Part shown: piece after piece, positions 3,685 through 10,265 of the stretch
Position numbering within the stretch: the stretch's first letter is position 1
Layout of the letters: every line of letters begins with the position of its first letter
DNA from: Candidatus Moraniibacteriota bacterium
GTDB lineage: Bacteria > Patescibacteriota > Minisyncoccia > Moranbacterales > DUUL01
Direction of reading: 5' to 3'
Assembly: GCA_027008775.1 (NCBI GenBank)
Contig: JALVDV010000010.1
Span: forward strand, 1-32,528
DNA: 32,528 nucleotides
Made by a program: the position numbers and the translations under genes
Notes under the pieces: generated by a model
Seen by the model: only the letters and a program-made list of their open reading frames with translations
Database searches by the model: none
Told to the model about the DNA's origin: nothing

Positions 3685-4275
3685 TTATTTTGCCAATTTA
3701 CGCTGGCTGGTTGCGTAATCTGGTAAGAGGTATTTTCTGGCCAGGCAGAGGGGAACAATTGTTTGAGCGCTAAGAAATTTCCCTTGGTCCAACATCCGGT
3801 AGGCTTTTTTGATTTTTATTCTGACGATTTCCAGTCCGGCTTCTTTTTCTGAACTTTCCAGTTTTTGGCCGACAAACCGCAAACCTTCAGCAAGAAAAAC
3901 GTGGCTTCTTTCCGAAGACAGTCCGGCAAAAACAAAATAACTGCCTATTTTTTTGATCTTCTCGGCTTGGTAACCCGTTTCTTCGCGAAGTTCTTTGCGA
4001 GCGGAAATAAGTGGGGTCTCCCCTTTCTCTTTTTTGCCTGTTGGTAATTCCAGCAACTTGTGTTGACTGGGATATCTAAATTCTCTAATAAAAATAATTT
4101 TGTCAGCCAAGACGGGCACGACTGTCACTGAACCGCCGGTGGCCAAGAAATAATAATCCCCTTCTCGTCCACTGGGGAATCTAAATTTATCGTGAATAAT
4201 CTTGAACCACTTGTTTCTATGAACCACCTCGGAAAACAATGTTGGCCATTTTCTTTTCCGCTTTACTTGCGACAT
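3685..4275 (-). CDS. NUDIX hydrolase (ADP-ribose pyrophosphatase-like)
   Basis: Nudix box GKKEKGETPLISARKELREETGYQ. Confidence 0.92.
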   Translation of the reverse strand: MSQVKRKRKWPTLFSEVVHRNKWFKIIHDKFRFPSGREGDYYFLATGGSVTVVPVLADKIIFIREFRYPSQHKLLELPTGKKEKGETPLISARKELREETGYQAEKIKKIGSYFVFAGLSSERSHVFLAEGLRFVGQKLESSEKEAGLEIVRIKIKKAYRMLDQGKFLSAQTIVPLCLARKYLLPDYATSQRKLAK

Positions 4276-6696: not shown

Positions 6697-6829
6697 GGAG
6701 AGGTGCCGGAGTGGGAATGGTCTGAGCTAGCGAAGACTATTCCGGATTTTTAAGTATAAAATCCGCGGAACCACTCTGGTGGGAAATAAAGCGAAAGCAA
6801 GTTAACAGTTTCAAGAGAAAACGCTATCC
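6697..6829 (+). repeat. tRNA-Ser 5' fragment (6697-6714) plus structured insert A (6715-6829)
   Basis: GGAGAGGTGCCGGAGTGG equals the first 18 nt of tRNA-Ser(GCU). The 115-nt insert is repeated inverted at 10097-10211. Confidence 0.9.
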
Positions 6830-6949
6830 GGAGGAATGCCGGAGTGGTTGAACAAGATTCCTCGGTCCGGAATCTTCCCTGCTAAGAACACCTTAGCAGG
6901 GTTCGTCTCAGGAATAATTGTTGGGGGTAGGATATTTAATTTTACATTT
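6830..6949 (+). repeat. tRNA-Ser 5' fragment (6830-6853) plus structured insert B, copy 1 (6854-6949)
   Basis: GGAGGAATGCCGGAGTGGTTGAAC matches the first 24 nt of tRNA-Ser(CGA); insert B is 96 nt. Confidence 0.9.
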
Positions 6950-7069
6950 GGAGAGGTGCCGGAGTGGTTGAACAAGATTCCTCGGTCCGGAATCTTCCCT
7001 GCTAAGAACACCTTAGCAGGGTTCGTCTCAGGAATAATTGTTGGAGGTAGGATATTTAATTTTACATTT
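6950..7069 (+). repeat. tRNA-Ser 5' fragment (6950-6973) plus structured insert B, copy 2 (6974-7069)
   Basis: GGAGAGGTGCCGGAGTGGTTGAAC matches the first 24 nt of tRNA-Ser(GCU). Insert B is identical to copy 1 except one G/A (ttgggggtagg vs ttggaggtagg). Confidence 0.92.
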
Positions 7070-7160
<91 letters not shown>

Positions 7161-10006: not shown

Positions 10007-10096
10007 TGGCGGAGGAAGAGAGATTCGAACTCTCGGTACCAAAAATGGTACAACGCTTTTCGAGAGCGTCCCGTTCAACCACTCCGGCATTCCTCC
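10007..10096 (-). tRNA. tRNA-Ser(CGA)
   Basis: Reverse complement GGAGGAATGCCGGAGTGGTTGAACGGGACGCTCTCGAAAAGCGTTGTACC...GAGAGTTCGAATCTCTCTTCCTCCGCCA; anticodon loop CTCGAAA. Confidence 0.96.
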
Positions 10097-10229
10097 GGAT
10101 AGCGTCTTCTCTTGAAACTGTCAACTTGCTTTCACTTTATTTCCCACCGGAGTGGTTCCGCGGATTTTATACTTAAAAATCCGGAATAATCTTCGCCAGC
10201 TCAGACCATTCCCACTCCGGCATTCCTCC
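10097..10229 (-). repeat. tRNA-Ser(CGA) 5' fragment (10212-10229) plus structured insert A' (10097-10211)
   Basis: The same 133-nt period as 6697-6829, in inverted orientation; insert copies differ at 6 of 115 positions, all transitions. Confidence 0.92.
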
Positions 10230-10265
10230 GGATAGCGTCTTCTTGTTGTTGAAGTTGGTTTTTGT

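Follow-up and report, generated by a model that had tools for sequence, protein, structure and literature searches.

A family of small three-way junction elements at tRNA genes of Patescibacteria, possibly inserted and selected as RNA

Insert A occurs twice in the window (i.e., the whole analysed stretch of 32,528 nt from a Candidatus Moraniibacteriota bacterium), at 6697-6829 on the forward and at 10097-10229 on the reverse strand, and is a divergent member of an undescribed element family of Patescibacteria, judging from negative Rfam scans and the open-licence literature. The shape of this family is kept by compensating mutations while its sequence changes almost freely. We give a probability of about one half to the reading that insert A was inserted as a non-autonomous element that targets tRNA genes, with selection acting on the structure of its RNA. 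That is, the family would comprise small non-autonomous elements (unit about 90-135 nt) that enter tRNA genes immediately downstream of an RGTGG motif. A second copy of the leader and the tRNA 5' part would follow the element, such that the tRNA survives, and the orphan tRNA 5' part upstream would serve as 5' strand of the closing helix P1. The sense transcript is predicted to fold into a junction of P1, P2 and P3, often followed by a U6 tract, which may pair with an A-rich P3 loop, and by a hairpin P4.

Both copies of insert A fold as three-way junctions, in line with the earlier sequence-only reading of this DNA. For copy 1, the MFE is -39.7 kcal/mol (z -3.2, matched by 0/200 shuffles), for copy 2 it is -37.9 kcal/mol (z -2.3, matched by 4/200 shuffles). 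When folded alone, the 83-nt cores (for copy 2 at 10142-10224, reverse strand) reach -34.9 and -34.7, respectively, with identical structures. Copy 1 starts with an orphan tRNA-Ser(GCT) 5' part, GGAGAGGTGCCGGAGTGG (6697-6714), which is identical to the start of the intact tRNA gene at 7070. Its 3' end, CCGGAGTGG (6706-6714), is paired in the fold and in the family, i.e., it forms helix P1 with 6771-6779, extended by a tenth pair, G-U, between 6705 and 6780. Both hairpins inside the junction are supported by the fold and by family covariation: P2 (6715-6742; 6715-6723 with 6734-6742) is built from GAATGGTCT/AGACTATTC with the loop GAGCTAGCGA of tandem-GA type, and P3 (6743-6765; 6743-6750 with 6758-6765) from CGGATTTT/AAAATCCG with the loop TAAGTAT. 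They are followed in the fold by the junction CGGAA and P1', CCACTCTGG(T) (6766-6780), the complement of the orphan tRNA 5' part; NGG followed by P1' is found throughout the family. The remaining 3' segment (6781-6829, delimited by the alignment with copy 2) contains ACAGTTTCAAGAGAAAAC, which looks, by eye and compared to family leaders, like a shortened form of their CAG-U6-P4 arrangement. The last 14 nt of the segment, AGAAAACGCTATCC, equal the leader of the tRNA-Ser(CGA) gene.

The alignment of the two copies confirms that they differ at 6/115 sites and by transitions only. Four of these differences had been proposed to keep pairing. This holds for gact/gatt in P2 and ctctgg/ctccgg in P1, which lie in family-supported helices and are tolerated via G-U, but not for gcgaaagc/gtgaaagc and gagaaaac/gagaagac, which fall into short downstream hairpins that lack conservation across the family and are not predicted for each copy. 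The comparison of two copies by itself is weak support for the fold, and the proof comes from homologues.

Sequence-based searches for such homologues were negative. An exact pattern of the closing helix, searched in 128 genomes of the order, matched in the window alone, blastn with insert A found nothing in 8 further genomes of the family, and it gave no match in phages and plasmids, the latter being expected for an element whose sequence is not conserved. We also searched 383 genomes of the class by arrangement, i.e., for tRNA-Ser 5' parts that recur at a distance of 106-136 nt. This yielded five further loci, each located before a tRNA-Ser(CGA) and sharing no obvious sequence with insert A. 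The plan of insert A is present in 4/5 of them, and the fifth (L063) folds differently. From these four loci we built a covariance model, R1; in the seed alignment (A4), a single loop A was deleted from two seeds so that MAFFT aligned the stems, and all later counts were made on unedited sequences. R1, which derives from other genomes and excludes the window, detects both copies of insert A with 31.3 and 28 bits (E about 1e-5 and 8e-5, respectively) and has matches in 47/383 genomes of the class (E <= 0.01). The retrained model R2 includes the window copies, scores them with 47.3 and 46.2 bits and finds members in 12/379 genomes spread over the phylum. Within their own genome, the two copies of insert A are the only members detected. 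With regard to known families, Rfam 15 reports only tRNA and RNase P above the curated thresholds for the window, permissive Rfam scans of the insert and four relatives give tRNA and sub-threshold matches only, and full-text searches of open-licence papers turned up no such element.

The alignment of homologues, to which the sequence-only reading had tied its proposed fold, shows clear covariation. Among 53 distinct sequences, 94.3% of the cells are paired compared to 68.7% in shuffles, the covariation score is 0.63 versus 0.17 (0/500 shuffles match it), and double-sided changes are observed in 23/25 pairs. Pairing collapses when partners are slid by 1-3 columns, with a shift of one column leaving about 40%. 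Resolved by helix, P2 is paired in 98.5%, P3 in 98.6%, lower P1 in 85.0% and upper P1 in 87.5% of the cells; both sides have changed in 9/9 pairs of P2, 7/7 of P3 and 6/6 of lower P1. The latter extends to the whole family what had been claimed for insert A, namely a closing helix that uses the tRNA fragment.

This alignment was fitted to a model, and we therefore drew an independent set of loci with the downstream leader alone (TTTTTTGNNYGAGGCNNNGCCGAG) as query against 84,980 species genomes, which gave 36 loci. In most of them, P2, P3 and P1' precede the leader and a tRNA follows it, although P1-P3 were not used in the search. Two adjacent perfect hairpins are found upstream in 17/37 leader-selected loci versus 9/740 mononucleotide-shuffled controls. 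Where the hosts of convincing matches are named, they are Patescibacteria (Moranbacteria, Yanofskybacteria, Buchananbacteria, Uhrbacteria, Sungbacteria, Colwellbacteria, Berkelbacteria and Microgenomatus, among others). The few matches in other phyla (Verrucomicrobia, Pirellulales, Dictyobacter, Eubacterium) come without the fold.

We also compared the frequency of G-U pairs with that of A-C cells, i.e., the G-U pairs of the other strand. The ratio is 44:5 in P2, 43:23 in P1 and 3:5 in P3, where almost all pairs are Watson-Crick and no asymmetry exists. Given the 44 versus 5 in P2, it is the fold of the tRNA-sense strand that matters. The model to which the alignment was fitted favours G-U over A-C. 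A-C cells also cost more search score, so that part of the bias may stem from detection; on the other hand, a ratio of 44:5 in a helix with 98.5% pairing is difficult to explain on this basis. The tolerance of G-U had been read as a sign of selection on RNA rather than on a DNA hairpin. It identifies the folding strand, but a preference for G-T/G-U on one strand cannot separate RNA from single-stranded DNA, and DNA parameters give the same stable fold for insert A.

The fold could thus matter as single-stranded DNA, with hairpins on the tRNA-sense strand serving a recombinase or a replication-linked transposase as in attC sites or IS200/IS605 ends, and the boundaries of the mobile unit at RGTGG on both sides would suit such an enzyme. 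We consider this improbable, as Y1 transposases show no association at the genome level: they occur in 28/47 carrier genomes versus 200/336 non-carriers. With equal frequencies in carriers and the rest, a Y1 transposase is probably not the partner; the genome of the window has one. No autonomous relative or mobilising enzyme was identified. In viral contigs, the closing-helix pattern gave 41 chance matches, mostly coding-like, and the IMG/VR pattern matches are coding or ordinary sequence, none of which fits R2 among those tested. No member was seen in the viral contigs examined, and this counts against the insertion reading, as does the negative result for a mobilising enzyme. Taken as a whole, the strand read with the tRNA presumably folds as RNA, and it is as RNA that the fold would be selected, with single-stranded DNA being less likely.

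A unit of the family consists of a tRNA 5' part ending in RGTGG, followed by P2 of about 9 bp, P3 of about 7-8 bp, NGG and P1' (the complement of the tRNA 5' part), usually a U6 tract and the hairpin P4, and finally the leader and the intact tRNA. The motif before the element is AGTGG in 42/75 and GGTGG in 8/75 distinct elements. It corresponds to G18-G19 of the D-loop in Ser, Cys and Ala tRNAs but to the acceptor/D stem junction (positions 8-10) in Leu, such that the sequence motif counts and not the position within the tRNA. By eye, a tandem G-A mismatch is frequent in P1 (GCC-GA-GTG with CAC-GA-GGC) and recurs in P4 and at the tip of P2. An A-rich P3 loop and a U5+ tract after P1' occur together in 54 elements, neither is found in 15, and one alone in 5 and 1, respectively; without the loci chosen by their U tract, the counts are 39/12/4/1. 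One reading of this co-occurrence is a contact between P3 loop and U tract, another one a shared loss in divergent lineages. The window copies follow the plan RGTGG-P2-P3-NGG-P1', with P1' complementary to the segment before RGTGG, and lack both frequent extras, i.e., their P3 loop TAAGTAT is not A-rich and no U5 tract follows. For U6-P4 as a tRNA promoter, inspection by eye gave no consistent -10 element.

Of the 75 distinct elements, 63 have a tRNA gene downstream on their own strand, at a distance of at most 160 nt. These tRNAs are Ser (38), Leu (13), Cys (5), Ala (3) and Pro, Glu, Thr and Gln (1 each). In 19/63 elements, the repeat begins 5 nt or more ahead of the tRNA, and such repeats are not accounted for by shared tRNA sequence alone. 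In the window, this is seen at the intact tRNA-Ser(CGA) (10007-10096, reverse strand; ARAGORN and Rfam), where a direct repeat of 32 bp lies on the same strand as the copy 2 core. The upstream repeat copy (10212-10243) holds the CGA leader and an orphan tRNA-Ser(CGA) 5' part and is 100% identical to the downstream one (10079-10110), in which the tRNA sequence is the genuine start of the gene. Copy 1 lies in the tRNA-Ser(GCT) gene and nevertheless bears the leader and the 5' part of the CGA gene; the latter, GGAGGAATGCCGGAGTGG (6830-6847, forward), was brought into the GCT locus with insert A and is identical to 10079-10096 of the reverse strand. Thus, a unit of element, CGA leader and CGA 5' part has moved, either via transposition or by recombination through the shared TGCCGGAGTGG. 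In relatives of the same family, the tRNA-Ser(GCT) and (CGA) genes have ordinary leaders and are free of elements, with differing neighbours so that the sites are not strictly orthologous. A further locus (L155, reverse strand, near 3748-3818) carries the element antisense to a tRNA-Arg, and the 3' end of this tRNA, ATGTGCCCCCGGAGGG, is duplicated on both sides. Together, the duplication, the carried CGA leader, the element-free relatives and L155 favour insertion, and the duplication itself would reflect it. Moreover, pairing of P1' with the target may take part in choosing or using the site. Tandem copies of the element are found in L116, L127 and L129, and elements without a tRNA nearby in L149, L165, L174 and L179. 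Of these, L174 and L179 (both G134) are near-identical dispersed copies of a variant with long P3, which could help to locate where the mobile unit truly ends.

Between copy 1 and the intact tRNA-Ser(GCT) (7070-7159, forward; ARAGORN and Rfam), the window contains two tandem B units (6830-7069), each with a tRNA 5' part and two hairpins, a plan similar to that of insert A. B unit copy 1 (6848-6949) consists of TTGAAC, two hairpins, GTTCGTCTCAGG and a leader, and it belongs to a 120-nt tandem repeat (97% identical) whose second unit (6950-7069, from the repeat comparison) comprises the GCT 5' part and B. B units enter the tRNA-Ser(GCT) gene 6 nt further in than insert A, and a comparable unit is present in L104. 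As family members they are rejected at present: R2 assigns only 6.9 and 5.9 bits to the two copies. According to fold prediction, an isolated segment of the B unit can form a three-way junction, while the whole unit does not.

The tRNA-Cys locus complicates the insertion reading. Here, the element is common to five species with conserved neighbouring genes (about 60-93% protein identity). Its P2 takes the forms GCTTGATGC/GCATTAAGC, GTCAGATGC/GCATTTGAC and GTCCGATGC/GCATTGGAC, i.e., three adjacent pairs have changed with compensation. The orphan acceptor strand GGTCCGT is unchanged in 5/5 species and has little or no part in P1. This persistence and the kept, unpaired GGTCCGT exceed what is expected for a dead insertion and count against the insertion reading. 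Either selection on the structure or repeated conversion or re-insertion must be at work, and because of this persistence we keep a cis-regulatory role as a serious rival, though a rather unlikely one. The element would then be a leader RNA that controls expression or maturation of the downstream tRNA. If P1' paired with the decoy 5' part, the tRNA would fold freely; if it paired with the real one, the tRNA would misfold. The balance would be set by a ligand, a protein or the contact of U6 and A-rich loop, or P1 and U6 would form a terminator. Beside the vertical retention at tRNA-Cys, this agrees with the location on the same strand immediately 5' of tRNA genes, with the 54/15/5/1 co-occurrence of loop and tract, and with the observation that P1' pairs about equally well with both 5' parts. 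In contrast, a leader function hardly explains why the element is sporadic and missing from the majority of genomes and tRNA genes in the class, the antisense orientation in L155 and the four loci without tRNA, nor do the served tRNAs share an obvious trait. The fit of P1' was tried as decisive test of decoy versus target and gave a mixed result: where orphan and real tRNA 5' part differ, it is better to the orphan in 14 cases and to the real tRNA in 10.

Relatives with lower scores show an extended P3 loop, and in L175, L186 and L188, P3 encloses a complete tRNA (Phe, Ser and Asn, respectively) between long inverted repeats. For the tRNA-Ser(GCT) of L186 (G282:C16) and the tRNA-Phe of L175 (G282:C6), the surrounding element follows an orphan tRNA 5' part. 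In L188 (G328:C30:6192-7087), two P2-P3 modules interrupt a tRNA-Tyr(GTA)-like gene, with the tRNA-Asn placed in the P3 of the first module. The tRNA-Glu-like gene of L131 has one module within the D-loop and, at about position 37/38, an entire tRNA-Ala. The nested Asn (L188) and Ala(CGC) (L131) tRNAs are the only ones found in the respective genomes. Given such loci, one can ask whether the element is removed from a precursor like an intron, which would join the orphan 5' part, or the interrupted exons of L144 and L188, to the remaining tRNA. The two modules within an otherwise complete tRNA-Tyr(GTA), the one in the D-loop of L131 and the RGTGG common to both boundaries fit this idea. It is nonetheless very improbable: uninterrupted tRNA-Tyr(GTA) and tRNA-Glu(TTC) genes are present elsewhere in the L188 and L131 genomes, which makes removal unnecessary, the downstream tRNA is already complete in the usual class, and no group I or II match was found by Rfam among the loci scanned. 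Because both genomes hold an intact copy of that tRNA, we also do not take the interruptions of tRNA-Tyr and tRNA-Glu to prove splicing. An extended form of the insertion reading, which is possible but tentative, sees tRNA-specialised, RNA-structured mobile elements of Patescibacteria, in which P1' acts as guide that pairs with the target to recognise or use it, the tRNA 5' end is rebuilt, and P3 carries whole tRNA genes in some lineages, such that tRNA genes come to lie in elements that are themselves located in other tRNA genes.

Nesting of complete tRNAs in an outer tRNA-like sequence is also observed in L131, L110 and L112 (Ala, Ala and Pro, respectively), where the two acceptor strands of the outer sequence, 5' and 3', complement each other, as in GGGCCTA with TAGGTCC. 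In L144 (2379-2819), an element lies in the D-loop of a tRNA-Ser(GGA) that lacks the 5' acceptor strand, followed by a stray tRNA-Ser 3' half; related, scrambled Ser loci are seen in L107, L124 and L130.

Compared to known systems, the family combines features of several. Like integrative elements with tRNA genes as attachment sites, it would insert site-specifically into a tRNA gene, with a duplicated piece that restores the gene; those elements, however, usually restore the 3' part, span kilobases and encode a recombinase, whereas here it is the 5' part, about 115 nt and no gene. REP/BIME and IS200/IS605-derived hairpin elements are likewise short, non-coding, hairpin-based and located after a short GG-rich motif, and in both the target flank may pair with an internal guide. 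Unlike them, the family has a covarying three-way junction of about 80 nt, a duplicated target and no Y1 association. IS200/IS605 insertion is marked by the lack of target duplication, while the repeats beyond the tRNA start described above are duplicated, which an element-borne right end could mimic. T-box leaders are also structured leader RNAs tied to tRNA by base pairing, but the elements precede tRNA genes instead of synthetase mRNAs, and neither a specifier loop or T-box sequence nor an Rfam match was seen. Bacterial group I introns of tRNAs share the location in a tRNA gene and a strand complementary to the 5' flank; in contrast to them, the elements have no catalytic core, measure 70-130 nt, sit in the tRNA 5' half and not the anticodon loop, and usually leave the downstream tRNA intact. 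Finally, tRNA-derived SINEs are short, start with a tRNA 5' part and are flanked by direct repeats, and differ in that the present elements are bacterial, take their tRNA part from the local gene and have no known A tail or retrotransposase.

The family is a strongly supported structured RNA that is missing from current RNA libraries. Genomes of the bacterial superphylum in which it resides are very small, and little selfish or dispensable DNA would be expected in them. Part of the closing helix is host tRNA sequence, i.e., a piece of a tRNA gene became part of another RNA fold. If mobile, the elements would represent a base-pairing-dependent parasitism of tRNA genes that does not harm them; if regulatory, single tRNA genes would be controlled by a decoy of their own 5' end. 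Apart from the tRNA loci, the window shows direct repeats of 127 nt (76-100% identical) at 1-484, within a gene for a repetitive helical protein that is cut by the window edge.
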